This document shows, piece after piece, positions 1,564 through 42,227 of a DNA stretch of 64,000 nt; positions within the stretch are counted from its first letter, which is position 1; every line of letters begins with the position of its first letter. The notes under the pieces were generated by a model. That model made no database searches. It saw only the letters and a list, made by a program, of their open reading frames with translations, and was not told the DNA's origin. A program made the position numbers and the translations under genes. The stretch is from a virus, in the IMG/VR virus record IMGVR_UViG_3300020122_000238, positions 211,301-275,300 of that record, one strand, 5' to 3'.

Positions 1564-1810
1564 ATGGGACGCCTGGTAGTTACCGTGAGGGGAGAATGCG
1601 AGCACCACAAGCGACGCGGACATCTACTGTGATGTCCGCGTCGCTTGTGGTGCAACGATCCTCCGCGTCGAGATGATAGGGGACTACCCCTCCACGGGCG
1701 CCCACATCTACGTGAAGTGCCAAAAATCTCCCGCCGAGCTGTCCGCGGCTATCGACGCTGCGGACGAGATCCCGCAATATTCAATCAGGACGGAAGTAGA
1801 GCGAAAATGA
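1564..1810 (+). CDS. Hypothetical protein, reading frame broken near 1593
   Basis: The ATG at 1564 opens MGRLVVTVRG, then the frame ends after 22 codons. Removing one G from the GGGG run near 1589-1592 joins it to a clean frame (ENASTTSDADIYCDVRVACG...) that runs to a TGA overlapping the ATG of the synthetase at 1807. The joined product would be about 81 aa. The 23-bp inverted repeat at 1602-1653 lies inside it. A sequencing indel is the likeliest cause; a real pseudogene is possible. Confidence 0.5.
1602..1653. repeat. Perfect 23-bp inverted repeat inside a reading frame
   Basis: Arms 1602-1624 and 1631-1653 with a 6-nt loop. It lies early in the broken reading frame and has no T tract, so it does not look like a terminator. 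Confidence 0.85.
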
Positions 1811-3123
1811 GTAACGTAATCCTGATCGCGGGCCTCAACTACGGAGATGAGGGCAAGGGGACGACCGTCGACTACCTCGCTCGGAAGCACGAAGCGCACA
1901 CGGTCGTCCGCTACAACGGCGGAGCCCAAGCAGGCCATTCGGTGGTCCTGGAGGATGATCGGCACCACACCTTCGCCCAGTTCGGGAGCGCCACCTTCGT
2001 CCCTGGGGTGAAGACGCACCTCAGCCGGCACATGCTCATCAACCCGATCTTCATGATGTCTGAGGAGAAGCACCTCCGCACTGTCGGCGTCGAGGATGCC
2101 TTCGAACGGATGACCATCGAACGGGATGCGCTGATCACGACTCCCTACCATGTCGCCGCGAATCGCATCCGGGAGATGGCTCGCTCAAACCGCCACGGAT
2201 CTTGTGGGATGGGAATCGGCGAGACGGTGAGCAGTCACCTGTTCCACCCTCAAGAGGATCTCCGGATTGGGGATCTGGAAGGGCCAATCACCGCGCGATT
2301 GGAGCAGATCCGAGCGCGGTATTTGTGGGAGCTGGCTACTCTGCACATTCCCGAGTGCAAGTTCCGCGACTACGATTGCATCTGCCCGTTCAAGCATGAA
2401 TGGGGCATGCTCTTGAACAAGAGCCTTCTCCCCTTGATTGTGGGGTTGCTCACGGGATTTCTCAAGCTCCCGCTCAAGGTTGTCGATGAGACCTACCTCC
2501 CGCTCATCATGGGGGAAGGGACCACGATCTTCGAGGGTGCTCAGGGTGTCCTCCTTGATCAGGACTACGGGTTCCACCCCTACACGACCTGGTCCGACAC
2601 GACCTTCAGCAACGCCCTCAACCTGATCGAAGGCTTCTCTGGAGACGTAAGGAAGATCGGGATCGTTCGATCCTACATGACCCGGCACGGGGCGGGCCCA
2701 TTCGTCACGGAAGATGTCACCCTCCAGCTCCCCTCCACGAAGGTTGAGCACAACTCGCTCAATCCCTGGCAATCGAATTTCCGGGTGGGGCATTTCGACG
2801 CCTTCGCGACCAATTACGCCCTCAAGGTGATTGGGGGTGTCGACGAGATCGCCATGACACACTGCGATGTGCCAAGTAGTGGTAAAATTTGTGTTGGATA
2901 CAGGGGAGAGTTTACCCCCGAAGTGCTTCAGGATATGCCGCATGTGAAGCATATTCGTGAAGACCTCGACGTTCGTACGGGTATCACAAATGCTCTTTTC
3001 AATGTCTTTCCGGTGTACTTGACCGATGTGGCAGAGAAGGATTTCATCCCCAAAATTGAAGATTTCGTGGGGACTCCCATCACCATCAAGTCGTACGGCC
3101 CCACGGCCAAGGACAAGCGATAA
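1807..3123 (+). CDS. purA: Adenylosuccinate synthetase family (PurA/PurZ-like)
   Basis: The 438-aa length fits adenylosuccinate synthetase, which joins IMP and aspartate using GTP. The N-terminus has LNYGDEGKG (catalytic Asp and GTP loop) and YNGGAQAGHSVV (catalytic His). IFEGAQGVLLDQDYG and YMTRHGAGPFVTED match conserved family blocks. The usual aspartate loop TTGRxRRCGW is replaced by NPWQSNFRVGHFDA, a change I associate with the phage PurZ branch that acts on dGMP to make 2-aminoadenine DNA precursors; this is from memory and unverified. A hydrophobic insert near residue 200 is unusual. The start ATG overlaps the previous TGA, and the TAA overlaps the next ATG by 1 nt. Confidence 0.92.
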   Translation: MSNVILIAGLNYGDEGKGTTVDYLARKHEAHTVVRYNGGAQAGHSVVLEDDRHHTFAQFGSATFVPGVKTHLSRHMLINPIFMMSEEKHLRTVGVEDAFERMTIERDALITTPYHVAANRIREMARSNRHGSCGMGIGETVSSHLFHPQEDLRIGDLEGPITARLEQIRARYLWELATLHIPECKFRDYDCICPFKHEWGMLLNKSLLPLIVGLLTGFLKLPLKVVDETYLPLIMGEGTTIFEGAQGVLLDQDYGFHPYTTWSDTTFSNALNLIEGFSGDVRKIGIVRSYMTRHGAGPFVTEDVTLQLPSTKVEHNSLNPWQSNFRVGHFDAFATNYALKVIGGVDEIAMTHCDVPSSGKICVGYRGEFTPEVLQDMPHVKHIREDLDVRTGITNALFNVFPVYLTDVAEKDFIPKIEDFVGTPITIKSYGPTAKDKR

Positions 3124-34759: not shown

Positions 34760-34999
34760 TTAGACGTAACGTGGATCCCGCAAGTACGGAAACAGCTCTT
34801 GCATCGAACCAGGCTTGGCCGGAGGGAACCCTTCACCATCCGGCACCCCCAGCATCTTGCTGAAGTTCGGCTCGCCCGTTTCAGCCGCCATATCATTCAG
34901 GGTATCGGCGAAAGACGCTGCCAGATCCTCCGGAAGATCGGGGTTGGCGTCGATGGCCTTTTGTTCTGCGGGCGTCCAGTTCGTCGTCTTCATCGTCAC
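34760..34999 (-). CDS. Hypothetical protein, 79 aa
   Basis: GTG start overlapping the stop of the NAD-enzyme gene upstream (GTGA), so it is co-translated with it; an ATG two codons in is an alternative. Acidic helical protein of unknown role. Confidence 0.7.
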   Translation of the reverse strand: MTMKTTNWTPAEQKAIDANPDLPEDLAASFADTLNDMAAETGEPNFSKMLGVPDGEGFPPAKPGSMQELFPYLRDPRYV

Positions 35000-36129
35000 T
35001 TCGCCGTGTTGCGCAGCTCGGTCGAGCTGATGTCCCAGCGGCCCGGGACGTCCTTGAACAGAAAGACAAGGATGTCGACGACATCCTTGTGGGCGTAGAT
35101 GATGTCACTGCCCGTCTTGTACTCACCCTTGACGAGCCGACCGAGCACGTAAAAGCGCGTGCAGTGGGCCGAGAACTCCTCCAGCAAGGGCGCGACTTCG
35201 ATGCCCCACTTGGGGTCGAGCATCGTCGCCAGGGTGTCCGCCCCGAGCACGAAGGCAGCACCCGGGAAGGCCTTCGCCTTGTCGAGGAAGAGCGGGTCGT
35301 TCTCCGACAAGAGGTAGTTACGCCCTCGCATCCCAGCCACCCGTTGCAACAGCTCCGGGACCGTGACAGGCGTCTTGTGGACCGGGTTGATGGTGGTCAT
35401 GTGGACCAACGTCTGGTAGAACCTGTAGGCGAGAAGATGCGCTTCCCGGCCCCCCTTCTCGTGCCCATCATGGAAGGGATTGAAGCTCCCCGGGTAGATA
35501 AGGGTCGTCAGGGGGTTGATGTCCGCAGCCGTTCCGCGCGTCCCATCCGCCTTGAAGTAGGGGTGAGCGAAGAGACGAGCCCGCGCTTTGTCCATGGCCT
35601 CGATGGGCTCGAACTTCACCCCGAGGATGTCGGGGTCGACCGGGAGGCCCATCGCTCGCGAGAGGATGTTCAACCCCATCGAATCGGCGATCATCCCGTC
35701 CACCGTGCGCTGCTCCCAGCCCACTCCTTTGGGGATGACAGCGGAGGCGATGTAGCAGCCCCCATCACCGAAGGCCGCGACGAAGATCCGGTGATCTCCC
35801 CGGTGCTCCCGAGTCGAAGCGACCGAAGCAGCGAGGCCAATCCCGATTGCCTTCGAGCCAGGCTTCACGGCCCGGAGGTACGCGGTCATGGCGAGGTCGA
35901 GCGCGATGTTCTCGTCGCAGTACTTCTCGGGGATGAATCCGAGATGGCGCGCGGTGGCCTCGGGCTCGTACGGGAAGCACGCTTCGATGAAGAAGTTAGA
36001 AATGCCCGGAGGAGCCCAGAGGCGGGACTGGACCCCTGCTCCGGCCCCCGTGGCGATGACGACGACCCGTGGAGCGTCAGCCCCAAGGTCGCGGAGGATT
36101 TCGATGTTGCGTGTGGTGTTGGTGCTCAT
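34996..36129 (-). CDS. CinA/PncC-like NMN amidase fused to NadD-like adenylyltransferase
   Basis: Residues about 15-185 resemble the CinA C-terminal (PncC) domain, which converts NMN to nicotinate mononucleotide (PPGISNFFIEACFPYEPEAT, SKAIGIGLAASVAS). From about 215, LIYPGSFNPFHDGHEKG is the HxGH-type nucleotidyltransferase motif (FHDGH) and DISSTELRN the ISSTxxR motif of NadD. Together they would make NaAD from NMN. A bipartite promoter gives the start (TGTAGA, 9 nt). It is a candidate for NAD supply or repair during infection. Confidence 0.85.
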   Translation of the reverse strand: MSTNTTRNIEILRDLGADAPRVVVIATGAGAGVQSRLWAPPGISNFFIEACFPYEPEATARHLGFIPEKYCDENIALDLAMTAYLRAVKPGSKAIGIGLAASVASTREHRGDHRIFVAAFGDGGCYIASAVIPKGVGWEQRTVDGMIADSMGLNILSRAMGLPVDPDILGVKFEPIEAMDKARARLFAHPYFKADGTRGTAADINPLTTLIYPGSFNPFHDGHEKGGREAHLLAYRFYQTLVHMTTINPVHKTPVTVPELLQRVAGMRGRNYLLSENDPLFLDKAKAFPGAAFVLGADTLATMLDPKWGIEVAPLLEEFSAHCTRFYVLGRLVKGEYKTGSDIIYAHKDVVDILVFLFKDVPGRWDISSTELRNTAK

Positions 36130-36138
36130 GTTGTCGGC

Positions 36139-36166
36139 TCTACAAGACGAGAAAGCCACGGATCAA
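36139..36166 (-). promoter_or_regulatory. Promoter TTGATC-N16-TGTAGA
   Basis: On minus, -35 at 36161-36166 and -10 at 36139-36144, spacer 16 bp, 9 nt from the ATG at 36129. Confidence 0.8.
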
Positions 36167-36283
36167 CCAGGATTCTCTTCGGGGTTGTGGGTCCCCACAG
36201 AGATCGGACCAGTGGCGTCGATGTAGCATAGCCTAACCTTCCAGGGCTTCCTTCTCCCGAAGGACATGGTGCTTTGGGGCACC

Positions 36284-36562
36284 TTAAAAATCGTCGTCTT
36301 CCAAGAGGAAGGCCACATGTGGGGGAGGCAGAAGCCGTAACCGACTCACGAGCACGCCTGCATGTGTCGTCTCCCCATACTGAAGATCCAGGGGGCATAC
36401 AGTGACCCACCCCTTCTGGAAATGATACCCGGGAGTGGAGTTGTCGCGCACTCCCGAAATCAATCGAACTTTTCTCCCCTGCCAACTATAACCCAAGCGA
36501 CCTTCGACGATGTATATCTCGGGAGAAAAGTTGGCACGTGGTTGAGGACAGTCTTCGCTCAT
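36284..36562 (-). CDS. C-tagged hypothetical protein, 92 aa
   Basis: Small beta protein ending LPPPHVAFLLEDDDF, a tag that keeps the acidic end and a proline linker but lacks Trp. ATGA overlap couples it to the previous gene. Confidence 0.75.
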   Translation of the reverse strand: MSEDCPQPRANFSPEIYIVEGRLGYSWQGRKVRLISGVRDNSTPGYHFQKGWVTVCPLDLQYGETTHAGVLVSRLRLLPPPHVAFLLEDDDF

Positions 36563-36783
36563 TTGCGGTGGAAGACCTTGATCTCCCCCTCGGTCTCTTC
36601 GACGGAAGCCAGCATTTGCAGGGCTTCTTGGGCGGTTCGGACCTTCTCCCGAGTGCTGTAGGTGAAGGCCCAAGATCGTACGTCAACCCATCCGTCGGTA
36701 TCCCCCGCCCACCAATACCTCCGAGCCCAGCGATTGGCGGCAGAGGTATCAACACGCACATCTCGACGGATGATGTAGAGCAT
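36559..36783 (-). CDS. Hypothetical protein, 74 aa
   Basis: Trp/Arg-rich beta start (NRWARRYWWAGDTDG) and a helical second half. Lies 3 nt after the DUF4419 gene and is probably in its transcript. Confidence 0.7.
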   Translation of the reverse strand: MLYIIRRDVRVDTSAANRWARRYWWAGDTDGWVDVRSWAFTYSTREKVRTAQEALQMLASVEETEGEIKVFHRK

Positions 36784-36786
36784 GGA

Positions 36787-37878
36787 CTACTTCGCAGCCG
36801 GCTCGTCGCGCACAGCCCAGCCGATGGCCGGACGCACGATGAGGCTCTCCTCGTTCTGTGATACGCCAACGAAGCCCCCGAGGAACTCCATCTCGAACTT
36901 CGCGTCGTAGTAGAGCCAGGTGAACGGGACCTTCGAGAGACCGAGCGAGAAATCGGAGGGGTTGGGCCCTCCGCACATGTCCCCGATGCCCCGGGACCAC
37001 TTGTCGAGCGCGCGGTTCTTCCCGCGCGTGAGGTACGGGAAGAGCACGTTGATCCAACCCGTCACGTACGGCCCGCCGCTACCCCCGCCCTCATGGTAGA
37101 AGCTCTCCCAGAACTTGGGGTCGGCCTTACCTTCGGCCGACTCGATGACCTTGTCCAACACGGGGAGCAGCGCGTCAATCCACCACCCAAGGTCGTACTC
37201 CGCGAGGACCGCTGCCCGCGCCTTGACCCGACGCCAGTCTTCCACGGTGCCGAGCAGGGTGATCTCCGGGATGCCGCATGCCGTCCGCATGCCGTATGTG
37301 AAGTAGGCGCTCATGGCGTCCATGAGGACAATCTCGGAGGCCGCCTTCTCGATCAGGCCGGTCGTCGAGAAGTCCGCAACGATGAGGTCACGGGTCTTGC
37401 CGATGTGCTGGGCGAGCTGGTCAGAGAACTCACCGAAGGCTCCCGGCCAATCATTATCGGCGGAGCCCTTCACGAAGAAGTCCCGCACGACCTCGATGTG
37501 CTCCTTCCCCTCGTGCTTGACGAAGCGGCTCCGGAGCTTCTCCGCATTCTCATTGACATGGGCCGCGAAGCCCTGCGCGATGCAGAGCCAGAAGTCGTCC
37601 GGGCTCAGGGCGAACGGGTAGTGGTGATCGAAGGCGATGTGGACAGCCGAGATGAAGGGGTTGATGCTGACGGTGTCCCCTTTTCTCTCCGACTTGCGGG
37701 TTCCGATGAGGGTCTCCGAGCTGGAGGCCGCTGCTTCGGGGGGAGCACCCCCAACGAGCCGGTGAATGGCTTCACCAACGGCAATACCGGCATCATAGGG
37801 CCGGTATTTGTTTTTGATCTGGGTGTACGGAGCTTCCGCGAGGGCGATCTTTTTGATCGTGGCTTTGAAGGTCTGCAT
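36787..37878 (-). CDS. DUF4419 protein, 363 aa
   Basis: DUF4419 blocks are clear: PDDFWLCIAQGFAAHVN, ITLLGTVEDWRRV, LPVLDKVIES, DPKFWESFY and GWINVLFPYL. The family is widespread in fungi and bacteria, with no known activity that I can name. TGTAAG is 8 nt from the ATG. It sits near the NAD-related genes. Confidence 0.85.
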   Translation of the reverse strand: MQTFKATIKKIALAEAPYTQIKNKYRPYDAGIAVGEAIHRLVGGAPPEAAASSSETLIGTRKSERKGDTVSINPFISAVHIAFDHHYPFALSPDDFWLCIAQGFAAHVNENAEKLRSRFVKHEGKEHIEVVRDFFVKGSADNDWPGAFGEFSDQLAQHIGKTRDLIVADFSTTGLIEKAASEIVLMDAMSAYFTYGMRTACGIPEITLLGTVEDWRRVKARAAVLAEYDLGWWIDALLPVLDKVIESAEGKADPKFWESFYHEGGGSGGPYVTGWINVLFPYLTRGKNRALDKWSRGIGDMCGGPNPSDFSLGLSKVPFTWLYYDAKFEMEFLGGFVGVSQNEESLIVRPAIGWAVRDEPAAK

Positions 37879-37904
37879 GAGGACCTCTTACACCAAGACG
37901 ACCC

Positions 37905-38234
37905 TCAAGAGAGGAAGAAAAAGTCCACCCTTTTGCCCTCGAACTCCCAAACCTCGACGATCTTCTCATCCTGAGACCCCAAGCTCCGCCACCTCGCCTG
38001 GACGATGTCCTTGTCGTAGAGCTTCTTCAGCCCAGCGCCTCGAAGGATCTGTTCCACCCAGAGCTTGTCCTGATCAGCGGACGACGCCGGGTAGACGATC
38101 AGATCCATGTCTTTGGTGCTCGACCCCTTGATCAAAACACTCCCCGTCAAGCCGAGATAGTACCTCGGCTTGAGAAGCTCGGAAAGCGTGAGAATGAAGG
38201 TCAGGCCGGAATCTCGATCCCAGGTGATAGGCAT
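37905..38234 (-). CDS. Nucleotidyltransferase-fold protein, 109 aa
   Basis: LTGSVLIKGSSTKDMDLIVYP fits the GS...DxD motif of small nucleotidyltransferases; the final KRVDFFF may supply the third Asp. It is short, as MNT/antitoxin-type members are. TGTAGC is 8 nt from the ATG. Confidence 0.7.
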   Translation of the reverse strand: MPITWDRDSGLTFILTLSELLKPRYYLGLTGSVLIKGSSTKDMDLIVYPASSADQDKLWVEQILRGAGLKKLYDKDIVQARWRSLGSQDEKIVEVWEFEGKRVDFFFLS

Positions 38235-38257
38235 CCCCAGGGGCTACACCAACCAGG

Positions 38258-39070
38258 TCAGAGCGATTCCGTCTCAAGCCACCAAAAATGAGGCAAGTAC
38301 TCTGCGGGTACGAATGGAGATTGACGTCCAGCCACTCGCATAGGTTGGAAATTCACCAGAAGGCGAAGCAAGGTTTCGAACTCCCAAGGTTCTGGTGTTT
38401 TGGGGTCCTTGAGCCATTCTTCAATGAAACCGCGCTGCTCGTATCGAAATCTGGACAGAAAAACTCTTGTCTCAAGAAGTTTGTGCGCCGCGACCATCTG
38501 ATCATAGGCAAGAGCATCCAGTCGAGCCTGCATCTCTACAGAGATGCAGGCTTCCGGCACTCGAAGTCGGAAGCGTTCGGGAACAACAGTTTGAGGGTTC
38601 CAGTCTTCAAGACCCAAGGATGCTCGAAGTTCATTGATATAGGACAGCAGAGAAGAAGACAGACGAAACAATTCTCGTGTCCCCTCCACATAGATCCAGT
38701 CCGACGAAAACCGACTGTGGAGGAGTTTTTCGTCCTCCATGTCTCCTGTTACCCATGCCAGAAGCTCAATCTTGCGCGTCGATGACGACTGTATATTGTT
38801 CAGTCGTTGATGTATGTTGGTGGCAAATCCAATCTTTACCACGTCCGCATCAAGTCGAACAATGTATACCCCTGTAGCTTTTGGCCGAGGGTAAATAGGC
38901 GCGTCCAACTGTGCGGGCATCAATGTGTGCATGGCCCTGCGCCAATAAAAAAGACATGCTGCACATGTGAAGGATACCCAATATCCGTGCCCCTCATGCA
39001 CCTCAACGGTCGTTGAGGTGCATGAGGGGCACGGAGGGGTAAGCGCGGGCGGGAAGAAAACAAGAACCAC
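38258..39070 (-). CDS. GIY-YIG endonuclease with N-terminal zinc ribbon, 270 aa
   Basis: An N-terminal CPSC...C-AAC zinc site is followed by GVYIVRLDADVVKIGFATNIHQRLNNIQ and LLHSRFSSDWIYVEGTRELF, a GIY-YIG-type (T5orf172-like) nuclease core. A helical C-terminal region may recognise DNA. The GTG start is 7 nt after TGTAGG. Two inverted repeats (24 and 13 bp) lie inside it. Confidence 0.85.
   Translation of the reverse strand: MVLVFFPPALTPPCPSCTSTTVEVHEGHGYWVSFTCAACLFYWRRAMHTLMPAQLDAPIYPRPKATGVYIVRLDADVVKIGFATNIHQRLNNIQSSSTRKIELLAWVTGDMEDEKLLHSRFSSDWIYVEGTRELFRLSSSLLSYINELRASLGLEDWNPQTVVPERFRLRVPEACISVEMQARLDALAYDQMVAAHKLLETRVFLSRFRYEQRGFIEEWLKDPKTPEPWEFETLLRLLVNFQPMRVAGRQSPFVPAEYLPHFWWLETESL
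38525..38552. repeat. 13-bp inverted repeat in the GIY-YIG gene
   Basis: Arms 38525-38537 and 38540-38552 with a 2-nt loop. Confidence 0.75.
38986..39035. repeat. Perfect 24-bp inverted repeat in the GIY-YIG gene
   Basis: Arms 38986-39009 and 39012-39035, 2-nt loop, coding for the zinc-ribbon segment CPSCTSTTVEVHEGHG. Confidence 0.9.
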
Positions 39071-39078
39071 GAGGACAC

Positions 39079-39633
39079 CTACACCAAGGCTGCCCTCAAA
39101 TATCCGGTGGCAGTCTCCAGACGCTCCAAAGTGTCCCCCAGCAAACCAAGCGCCAGATTGCAGCTATGACAGAGAAGACCCCGGACCTTGCCCGTTGTGT
39201 GGCAGTGGTCGACGGCCCAAGAGGAGTTGTCCTTCTGTCCAGGTTTGTCTGCTCGGCAAATGGCACAACGTCCGCCTTGAGCTTCAAGCATCCTGGCGTA
39301 GTCGTCAGGGGTCAAGCCCTTCTTCTTGAGTCGTGAAACCCACGACTTGTAAGTGTTTTCGTTGCGATGCCCCTTCCGATACTCTTGGGCCTCAACGAGG
39401 TGCTCAGAATGGTACTTGCGCATCCGAGCCCGACGAGCATCAGAATTCTCGTGGTATCTGCGGTTGTTGTCCGAGATGCGCTTCTCGTGGTGCTTCCTGA
39501 AGTCGGCCTTCGATTGGAGGCGACGACAAGGCGGGCACCTCGATTGCGGCTTCATCACGCCGCGTTTCTTGATGAGACCGAAGACTTCCAACGGGAATGG
39601 GAGGGTACAGCCGGGGCAGATTTTCTCTTCCAT
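39079..39633 (-). CDS. EndoVII-like HNH homing endonuclease, 184 aa
   Basis: CPGC and CPPC form a zinc site, a basic helical linker follows, then the EndoVII core (GRCAICRAD, AVDHCHTTGKVRGLLCHSCNLALG). It is the intact relative of the broken gene at 17947. Its stop, GTG TAG, is in the promoter of the GIY-YIG gene, so two endonuclease genes stand in tandem. Confidence 0.9.
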   Translation of the reverse strand: MEEKICPGCTLPFPLEVFGLIKKRGVMKPQSRCPPCRRLQSKADFRKHHEKRISDNNRRYHENSDARRARMRKYHSEHLVEAQEYRKGHRNENTYKSWVSRLKKKGLTPDDYARMLEAQGGRCAICRADKPGQKDNSSWAVDHCHTTGKVRGLLCHSCNLALGLLGDTLERLETATGYLRAALV

Positions 39634-39684
39634 TCTGACAAGCGGCTCGTATTAATGAGAAACCACGCCAGAATGATGAGAAAC

Positions 39685-40230
39685 CTAAAGCCAGGTCAAC
39701 GCGATGCCATTACAAATCAAATGGCAAGTATTATCACAAATGATGAGGAGCCAGACGGAGAGCCACATCGGCCGGTCCTTGTGGTAGCCCGTCCCGACGC
39801 AGTCCGACCACATATAGTTGCGGACCATGGGCTTCTCGCTGGGGATATCCGAAGGGTCCATGTGCGTGCAAGTGCCGCATTTACGACAGGCTTTGATACC
39901 GCTGGGAGGAGCATCATGCTCTGTGAGGCTCACGCAGACCGCACAGAAGGTATCCCGTCGGTAGGTCGGAGCAAGCCACTTCGGAGCGAGGAAGTTTTTC
40001 GCCCAACAGACGTAGCGGGCGAGCCGGAAGCGGTCGATGAGGAAGTGGGTGAGGATGATGAACGCGAGCGCAGGGAGCGAACGCGTGATGAAGAGGAACG
40101 GTAGGCTGTAGCTCAGCGCATGAGCCGCAGCCGGAACCGAACTCTTCGTTTTTTCTTGAGCTTGCCAATCACTTTGTAAAAGGTAGTCCCCCACCAAGTG
40201 ACAAAGAAGCGCATCAGCAGTTAGAAACAT
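39685..40230 (-). CDS. DUF3307-like membrane protein with Cys insert, 181 aa
   Basis: HLVGDYLLQSDWQAQEK is the DUF3307 hallmark, followed by membrane helices (PFLFITRSL, ALAFIILTHFLIDRF). A Cys-rich insert (FCAVCVSL, CRKCGTCTH) splits the fold and a last helix (LSVWLLIICDN) ends it. Likely an inner-membrane protein of unknown role. Confidence 0.75.
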   Translation of the reverse strand: MFLTADALLCHLVGDYLLQSDWQAQEKTKSSVPAAAHALSYSLPFLFITRSLPALAFIILTHFLIDRFRLARYVCWAKNFLAPKWLAPTYRRDTFCAVCVSLTEHDAPPSGIKACRKCGTCTHMDPSDIPSEKPMVRNYMWSDCVGTGYHKDRPMWLSVWLLIICDNTCHLICNGIALTWL

Positions 40231-40726
40231 TTTCTATCCTTTGATGGGGGCAAGTACCCCCAAATCGAGTCGACCAATTGCAGTTCATGCAGAGCACCGT
40301 ATACCCTTCCTGGGGCCATCCCTTGTTTCGTAGGTCCCGGTAGGTATTCGATCCCCCTCCCACCTGTTTGCGATGGGAGGCCCCGTCCCTATTCAAATGC
40401 TCCAGGGTCAAAAACTCTTCGCACTCCTCACCGCAGCACTTACAGGAGCCCCCATAAGCAGCAATCATCTCTCGCTTCAAACGGAGAAATGACGCGTGAC
40501 TGCTCTGTCGAGCTTCCTCTGGGTGCTCTTTTCTGAAGCGCAGTTGGGCTGCGTTATTTCTTTCGCGTTTTTTGGGGTCTGACAGGTATGTCTGCCTATA
40601 GACAGCCTGCTTTGTCTTGAAACAGGCTTTACACCAAGGTTGACGGCCATCCTTGGACCCCTTACGAGGCGGGAAAGTATCCGTGGGGAAGGGATCTCCA
40701 CAGGTGCGGCAGTTTTTGAGAGGCAT
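40214..40726 (-). CDS. HNH endonuclease with zinc ribbon, 170 aa
   Basis: CRTCGDPF and CKAC form an N-terminal zinc site. The core GSCKCCGEECEEFLTLEHLNRDGASHR and LCMNCNWS is a diverged HNH of phage type. An upstream GGTGTAG with a hairpin near 40775-40806 suggests a structured leader. It overlaps the next gene by 17 nt. Confidence 0.85.
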   Translation of the reverse strand: MPLKNCRTCGDPFPTDTFPPRKGSKDGRQPWCKACFKTKQAVYRQTYLSDPKKRERNNAAQLRFRKEHPEEARQSSHASFLRLKREMIAAYGGSCKCCGEECEEFLTLEHLNRDGASHRKQVGGGSNTYRDLRNKGWPQEGYTVLCMNCNWSTRFGGTCPHQRIENVSNC

Positions 40727-40842
40727 GTCTACAAACAGACAGCCGTATAATTGGAGTACCGCAATCTCCGATGAGTTGAGCGGCAGTAAAAATCATACCG
40801 CTCAACTACACCAGCTACGAGACAATCAGAGGGAAGCCCCGT

Positions 40843-41823
40843 TCAGTCCTCCCAGAGAGAATTGTCCCAGAGCTTCACATTCATCTCCCAGATCATGTCG
40901 TGACCCTCCAGCCCGGTCAGGTACTTCTCGGGGATGCCCTTGTAGCGGTAGAAAGCCCCCGCGAAGGATCCGGCGATGGCCGCTGTCGTATCCGTGTCTC
41001 CGCCCGCCCGAATGGCCGAGACAATCGCTTCCTCGTAGGTGTCCGTGAGCAGGAAGCAGGCGAACGCAGCCGGCACCGTCTGGAGAACATGGCCCTTGGT
41101 GCCAATCTCCAGAAGGAGAGTGGGCAGATTCACCCTCGGCTCCGTCACCGCTTCCACAGCCAGCCGGTTCAGCAGATCCTTGATCTGCGAAGACCGCAGC
41201 TTGGAAATGACCTCCGTGAAGGCATTCAGCTTGCTGTAGGTACAGTCCCGACGGCACAGGAGAGCAACCATCCCGGCGACGGCAGCGGAGCCTTCCTCGG
41301 CCTCCAGGGAGCGATGGGTGAGCTGGGCATCCCGACGAGCCACAGCCATCCCCTCATCGAGGGGCCGATGGCAGTAGTACATCCCAATCGGGGTCGCCCT
41401 CATCGCGGTCCCGTTGCCCTCGGACCCAACGACTCCGCACGTCTCGGGGTTTCCTTCGCGAGCGAAGGTCTCCAGGGCCTTCTTCGTCGTCCCACCAATG
41501 CCCCGGCAATCCACAGACTGGAACCAGGCGAGGTAAAACTGAGCCACGGTGACAGGGTCAAACCCCCGACGCTTCACCAGAGCCCCTGCGAGCGCGAGCG
41601 ACATCTGAGTGTCGTCCGTCCACTCCCCAGCTTCTTGGTCGTGGAAGCCCCCGCGGGAATCGCGGTACTCCCCCTTCCAGGTGAGAAGGTCCTGGTCGAC
41701 GATGTGGGACTTGCTGAAGGGCTTCTCGAACGGCGCCCCGAGAGCATCCCCAATGGCGAGCCCGACGAGCGGGGCGGGGTAATGCTGCATGATATCCGCC
41801 AATGCTTCCTTCGAAAGAGTCAT
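40843..41823 (-). CDS. ADP-ribosylglycohydrolase (DraG family), 326 aa
   Basis: All main blocks are present: GLAIGDALGAPFE, WTDDTQMSLALAG (metal-binding acid pair), GNGTAMRATPIG, and AIRAGGDTDTTAAIAGSFAGA (GGDTDT). It should remove ADP-ribose from proteins or nucleic acids. TAATG overlap joins it to the gene upstream. The end (KLWDNSLWED) is tag-like by chance or design. A role against ADP-ribosyl-based defence is possible. Confidence 0.93.
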   Translation of the reverse strand: MTLSKEALADIMQHYPAPLVGLAIGDALGAPFEKPFSKSHIVDQDLLTWKGEYRDSRGGFHDQEAGEWTDDTQMSLALAGALVKRRGFDPVTVAQFYLAWFQSVDCRGIGGTTKKALETFAREGNPETCGVVGSEGNGTAMRATPIGMYYCHRPLDEGMAVARRDAQLTHRSLEAEEGSAAVAGMVALLCRRDCTYSKLNAFTEVISKLRSSQIKDLLNRLAVEAVTEPRVNLPTLLLEIGTKGHVLQTVPAAFACFLLTDTYEEAIVSAIRAGGDTDTTAAIAGSFAGAFYRYKGIPEKYLTGLEGHDMIWEMNVKLWDNSLWED

Positions 41824-42227
41824 TACAATCCGCTCTCCTGGGGGGTCTTGCGCACACGGGCCTTGGTCATGCTGAGCGCAGCATGACTCACGGTATCCTT
41901 GCCCAAGACCTTGAACTCGTGATCCACGATGAGCAACCCCACCCGGTTGTCCCAGCCGATGGAAAAACGGTAGAGCCAGGCGTCATCGACCTTGAGGATG
42001 GTCTTCAGATGAGTCCAGGCTTGAGCGCTTTTGGCCAGATCGAAAGCCCACAGGACAGCGCCCAGAGCGGTACATCGAACGGGGACATTCTTGTCCAACC
42101 CCGTCCAATCGAACATCGCTCCACGGTCGAGCTGGATCCCTTGAGCTTCGGCCGTGTCGCACGCTTCCCCGATGATCTGGAGGGCCGGCTTCCGAGGCGG
42201 GACATAGAGAACGTTCAGTTCAATCAC
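41823..42227 (-). CDS. Hypothetical protein, 134 aa
   Basis: Alpha/beta protein (TALGAVLWAFDLAKSAQAW, WDNRVGLLIVDHEFK). It precedes and overlaps the ADP-ribosylglycohydrolase gene by 1 nt, so it may be a functional partner. No family recognised. Confidence 0.75.
   Translation of the reverse strand: MIELNVLYVPPRKPALQIIGEACDTAEAQGIQLDRGAMFDWTGLDKNVPVRCTALGAVLWAFDLAKSAQAWTHLKTILKVDDAWLYRFSIGWDNRVGLLIVDHEFKVLGKDTVSHAALSMTKARVRKTPQESGL

Follow-up and report, generated by a model that had tools for sequence, protein, structure and literature searches.

We analysed a 64,000-nucleotide stretch of viral DNA, hereafter the window, which covers positions 211301-275300 of the 275,300-base virus record IMGVR_UViG_3300020122_000238 (G000). 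The record comes from a giant phage, and the phage collection contains nothing closely related to it at the DNA level. On its minus strand, at 34996..36129, lies a gene for a protein of 377 amino acids that joins a CinA-like (PncC-like) domain to a NadD-like adenylyltransferase domain, and that we refer to as the fusion; the evidence described below suggests that it takes part, together with the phage enzyme NadV, in the salvage of nicotinamide adenine dinucleotide (NAD). Its open reading frame (ORF) extends to a GTG at 36159 (34996-36159, minus strand), and we prefer the ATG at 36129 as its start because a sister phage has the same methionine.

A structural model of the fusion, built with AlphaFold2 from 17 aligned relatives, has a mean predicted local distance difference test score (pLDDT) of 89.7 and a predicted template modelling score (pTM) of 0.88. 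The fold comparison (Foldseek and VIA) covered the structures ranked highest by Foldseek. Residues 1-161 (35647..36129, minus strand) have the fold of CinA, with a Z score of 18.3 and a root-mean-square deviation of 2.4 over 153 aligned residues for Agrobacterium tumefaciens CinA (AtCinA; 2a9s) and a Z score of 17.4 for T. thermophilus CinA. Residues 205-377 (34999..35517, minus strand) have the fold of NadD (Z 12.2) and of the human adenylyltransferase for nicotinamide mononucleotide (NMN) and nicotinate mononucleotide (NaMN) (NMNAT; Z 11.9), with the phosphopantetheine adenylyltransferases (CoaD), at a Z score of about 8, clearly below both among the matches listed. Profile comparisons agree with these assignments: they give 97.4% (E 4e-11) for the N-terminal domain against CinA and 98.0% (E 1.4e-12) for the C-terminal domain against NadD, and 0.03% for swapped pairs in either case. 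Pfam finds CTP_transf_like in the C-terminal half (8.1e-5) and no CinA match in the window protein at E<=1; in the relatives, CinA matches are mostly under the cut-off, with one over it (L014, 4.5e-6). None of the three fusion members tried belongs to a PHROGs family, and PADLOC returned no match for six of the seven proteins tried, the fusion of the window among them.

For a wider comparison, relatives were collected from IMG/VR with one motif pattern, which kept 59 of 243 stretches and yielded 59 loci in 53 clusters at 80% identity. Residue counts are based on 62 aligned rows (19 + 43), in which seven phage proteins occur twice, so that they represent 55 distinct proteins; they draw on 43 of the 53 clusters, the other ten being ORFs of less than 340 amino acids, most of them without the CinA half. 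Residue equivalences were taken from the sequence alignment, not from superposed coordinates.

In the N-terminal domain, the binding site for the phosphate is conserved and the catalytic apparatus is not. The window protein retains G42, S44, Y54 and R141, and across the family the corresponding phosphate binders are present almost without exception (in AtCinA numbering, S48 and R145 in 62/62 rows, G46 and Y58 in 61/62). By contrast, the position of the catalytic lysine, K63 in AtCinA, is occupied by a threonine (T59) in the window protein and by T, Q, L, F, I or W across the 62 rows, in none of them by lysine. The position of S31 holds T in 47 rows, A in seven, S in six and G in two, and that of T105 a threonine in 38; E30 and the ribose-loop motif are lost as well, and the AESCTGG and TGxAGPxGG motifs of PncC/CinA are mostly lost. 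In AtCinA, the exchanges S31A, K63A, Y58A and R145A left no detectable activity and T105A about 6% of the efficiency (PMC5384747), and in T. thermophilus CinA the same lysine, K301, was proposed as the general base (PMC4246079). The deamidase half of the fusion is thus probably dead. As the phosphate binders are kept and the lysine is lost, its pocket looks fit to bind a mononucleotide, yet unfit for deamidation through the established mechanism. Compared with the NMN deamidases of the PncC/CinA family (PF02464), the fusion therefore has the fold and the phosphate-binding residues, but lacks the Ser/Lys dyad. A similar state has been described for CinA proteins, from fungi and other sources, that were termed non-functional and that have lost the lysine of block P-III and kept the tyrosine (PMC3855486); unlike in our case, these are not described there as joined to an adenylyltransferase. 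A preliminary description of the window, made from the DNA letters alone, had named the protein a PncC-NadD fusion that would turn NMN into NaMN. The two-domain architecture with its PncC-like and NadD-like folds is borne out, but the deamidation that the name implies finds no support.

The adenylyltransferase half, on the other hand, looks active, as judged from its motifs (GSFNPFHDGH, GAD and DISSTELR, with K252 and R263). Both histidines of HxGH, the glycine and aspartate of GxD, and the second serine and final arginine of SSTxxR are found in 62/62 rows, K252 in 61, and R263 in 59, the other three having lysine. While the fusion thus shares the fold and the HxGH, GxD and ISSTxxR motifs with NadD, the nicotinate-mononucleotide adenylyltransferase, it falls far under the cut-off of that family (TIGR00482; 20.6 versus 112.45 bits), its pyridine-ring-binding segment has diverged, and it sits behind a CinA-like domain. 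We also observed nine NadD-like phage ORFs of 196-222 amino acids that have no CinA half (L139, L141, L142, L143, L146, L147, L148, L150 and L153); four of these (L142, L148, L150 and L153) have NadV in their flank.

The partner of the fusion is NadV. In 28 of the 53 IMG/VR clusters, NadV lies within 10 kb of the fusion, and always on the same strand (28/28). Where contigs are at least 100 kb long (28 of the 53 clusters), it does so in 12 clusters, nine of them within about 600 bases, against 2.4 expected, a rough figure that assumes one randomly placed NadV per contig and is affected by the relatedness of the clusters. The two genes are often immediately adjacent: in seven of 11 cases with NadV upstream, the distance from its stop codon to the nearest possible start of the fusion is -17, -4, -1, +1, +1, +7 or +41 bases, and in the other four it ranges from 183 to 908. 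In a tree with several long branches, each of the two large phage groups contains NadV-linked rows. A NadV gene is also present in the record of the window itself (G000 208683-209417; family match E 3e-61; 597 bits to NF006629; 515 bits to 7yqo, a chain of the NAMPT type), where its ORF ends about 1.7 kb upstream of the window start. It is directly preceded by an NrtR-like gene (172.9 bits, under the cut-off of 400), whose product matches the PADLOC candidate model PDC-S07 (1e-6). Likewise, an NrtR-like gene stands ahead of NadV in seven NadV-linked clusters.

Beside NadV, the fusion seems to replace the usual phage enzyme, NadM. In a census of the best 80 of at least 593 IMG/VR NadV loci, which leans towards near relatives of the NadV query set, the adenylyltransferase half of NadM lies within 5 kb of NadV at 64 loci and the fusion at four, and no locus has both. 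In the 59 fusion loci, all NadM matches fall on its Nudix half, which NrtR-like genes share. Among 20 NadV-linked records, 12 have the fusion as their sole CTP_transf_like match, as does G000, which may be a fragment. A second PF01467 match occurs in seven NadV-linked records; the two that were inspected are a CoaD-CoaE fusion (L155) and a CoaD (L156). The former is a phage ORF of 396 amino acids that we named by eye from its motifs. NadE was found in none of the 20 NadV-linked records and in one of 26 records overall; for scale, the NadE query has matches in 26 of 50,697 phage records. These NadE and NadM counts favour NMN as the substrate of the fusion, and since NadM uses NMN (PMC9503650) and the fusion seems to replace NadM, the fusion probably uses NMN as well.

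Given these observations, we propose that the fusion acts with NadV in a phage pathway that salvages nicotinamide to NAD, in which it is the adenylyltransferase, and that its N-terminal half is a pseudo-deamidase domain; we put the probability of this reading at roughly 0.6. NadV would convert nicotinamide, which is released on NAD breakdown, and phosphoribosyl pyrophosphate (PRPP) to NMN. The C-terminal domain would then adenylylate the mononucleotide, most likely NMN to NAD, which is the task of NadM in other phages. The N-terminal domain would be a binding site for NMN or NaMN with no deamidase activity, and might serve to hold or sense the substrate or to form dimers. Because an NrtR-like regulator often precedes NadV, breakdown of NAD to ADP-ribose may turn the operon on. 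A more far-reaching version is tentative, and we consider it rather less likely to hold than to fail: the fusions would form an unnamed class of phage NMN adenylyltransferases with a dead, NMN-holding deamidase, encoded in an NrtR-controlled NadV operon that ADP-ribose released by NAD-destroying defences would itself induce, so that the phage would rebuild NAD under attack.

Several observations weigh against an assignment to NadV-dependent salvage. In G000, about 37 kb separate NadV from the fusion; in 25 of the 53 clusters, NadV is missing from the 10 kb around the fusion, and three of the nine fusion records of our first set have no NadV at all, although these records may be fragments. Linkage on the same strand is weaker evidence in phages, in which long one-way gene blocks are common. 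In G020 and G022, NadM-Nudix, NadV and NadE genes stand in a row (L077 4354-7743 and L078 4632-8527), with the fusion elsewhere in the record. Likewise, NadE occurs in five of the nine first-set records, and LR745208 pairs the fusion with NadE and has no NadV. These last two points, together with the place of NadD among the closest folds in the matches listed, are also what one would expect if the fusion were a true, NaMN-specific NadD, whose product, nicotinate adenine dinucleotide (NaAD), is then amidated by a phage or host NadE, the link to NadV reflecting a general NAD supply. We regard this as unlikely, as the product of NadV is the amide NMN, NadE was not found in any of the 20 NadV-linked records, and the fusion occupies the place of NadM, an NMN enzyme.

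The occurrence of NadE in some records would also suit the original idea of a single protein that converts NMN to NaMN by deamidation and then makes NaAD, with a CinA domain that is active through an altered site, as would the CinA fold, the retained phosphate binders, and the threonines at the S31 (47/62) and T105 (38/62) positions. It is hard to reconcile with the absence of the catalytic lysine from every row, the loss of E30 and the ribose-loop motif, and the inactivity of the K63A and S31A variants of AtCinA (PMC5384747), and we consider it improbable. The divergence of the segment that binds the pyridine ring in NadD counts against the salvage assignment too, and raises the question of whether the nucleotidyltransferase acts on another substrate, such as a modified nucleotide or a signal, and lies near NadV for another reason. 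Its fold is indeed common to the phosphopantetheine adenylyltransferases, but these score clearly below NadD and NMNAT among the matches listed, and neither the overlap of the NadV stop codon with the start of the fusion nor the mutual exclusion with NadM fits such a role, which we therefore deem very unlikely.

The fusion is not a phage-only invention, an option we rejected, since 22 of 25 genome_contigs loci have it or its C-terminal half; they belong to Planctomycetota, Chloroflexota, one gammaproteobacterial metagenome-assembled genome (MAG) and one unclassified source, and loci L032-L034 have short-stretch matches only. These bacterial relatives provide two further points against the salvage role: NadV was found in the flank of none of the 25, and 13 of 17 fusion-bearing bacterial genomes encode, in a gene of its own, a NadD that passes the family cut-off, so that the fusion is not the sole NadD there. 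Three Promineifilum/Ardenticatenia MAGs (G008, G010 and G015; loci L017, L019 and L024) have the fusion and no NadD above that cut-off; in these, the fusion may serve as NadD, or the MAGs may be incomplete. In a Chloroflexota MAG (L023, 4763-6534), a CinA-like gene that keeps the lysine, a flavin-reductase-like gene (named by eye) and an unfused NadD-like gene stand in a row.

Salvage of nicotinamide by phages is known in the form of NadV with NadM or NadR (PMC9503650, PMC7824862), and NARP2 has been named as an NAD-replenishing counter-defence (PMC11984713). The fusion is best read as another kind of adenylyltransferase within this known NadV pathway. As in the described systems, NadV makes NMN and a HIGH-superfamily nucleotidyltransferase of the same operon would finish NAD; unlike in these, the second enzyme is a fusion of a CinA fold and a NadD fold, NadM is absent beside it, and an NrtR-like regulator often stands ahead. 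A further described route, NARP1, consists of Adps and Namat (PMC12774641). It likewise restores NAD from the products of NAD breakdown, but the route of the fusion would go through NMN and an adenylyltransferase. We considered NARP1 for these phages and rejected it: PF13793, the N-terminal domain of PRPP synthases, occurs in one of the nine first-set records (G023) and in none of the other eight, including G000. The proposal in the preliminary description that the window phage restores NAD by a route other than Adps/Namat is thus probable, given the operonic linkage with NadV in relatives and the NadV in its own record. Judged by titles and abstract openings, none of the papers listed in a search of one open library describes this fusion, and the accessible parts of the texts of PMC9503650, PMC7824862 and PMC11097641 do not mention CinA. 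In G023, we also noticed an ORF of 442 amino acids (L094; G023:C1:73745-74239), about 2 kb from NadE, that has a HIGH-type nucleotidyltransferase and a second half which, by eye, resembles a phosphoribosyltransferase.

The preliminary description had placed the fusion in a 7-kb set of NAD and ADP-ribose genes with a DraG-type ADP-ribosylglycohydrolase, a DUF4419 protein and a nucleotidyltransferase. The first two identifications hold. The DraG-type protein (40843..41823, minus strand; 326 amino acids; Pfam 6.4e-68) has its GDALG, WTDDT and GGDTDT motifs aligned with those of solved relatives and is a genuine member of its family, and it scores under the DraG and Tri1 equivalog cut-offs; the DUF4419 protein (36787..37878, minus strand; 363 amino acids) has a Pfam match of 8.3e-78. 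The supposed nucleotidyltransferase (37905..38234, minus strand; 109 amino acids) matched nothing in Pfam, PHROGs or PADLOC, so that this label is unconfirmed. Between DUF4419 and DraG lie genes for T5orf172, endonuclease VII-like, DUF3307 and HNH-like proteins (38258..40726, minus strand); these three nuclease-like genes and the DUF3307 gene are not part of an NAD function. Neither DraG nor DUF4419 is the partner of the fusion. DraG occurs in the fusion flank in one of 53 clusters, that of the window phage group, and at five of the best 80 NadV loci it lies within 5 kb of NadV. The sister phage L001 has an intact fusion, 87% identical, but its DraG ends after residue 181 and has a frameshift near residue 51, and little of its DUF4419 is left. 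On these grounds we rejected a set built around DraG and DUF4419, and with the interposed genes, the idea of a conserved set within 7 kb does not survive. At the level of whole records, DraG matches are found in eight of the nine fusion-bearing records, two of them as broken copies; about 5% of jumbo phages have DraG (PMC9503650). When L001 4103-4110 is compared with the window (36867-41276), 4.4 kb are missing from the sister phage, and the junction has about 7 shared bases; this gap may be a deletion or an effect of assembly.

Elsewhere in the window, a gene at 1807-3120 on the plus strand encodes an adenylosuccinate synthetase-like protein, which matches phrog_1211 ('2-aminooxy adenylosuccinate synthetase', 7.5e-78) as well as purA (3.3e-46) and PurZ (6e-11), each of the latter two under its own cut-off. 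A genome with modified adenine is possible from this gene.

Bacterial defences against phages commonly end in the depletion of NAD, and the known sets of phage enzymes for its restoration are few. If the fusion does represent a separate class of adenylyltransferase with a regulator of its own, such pathways would be more varied than their annotation suggests. The fusion would furthermore offer a natural test of how a pseudo-deamidase domain affects the flux of NMN.

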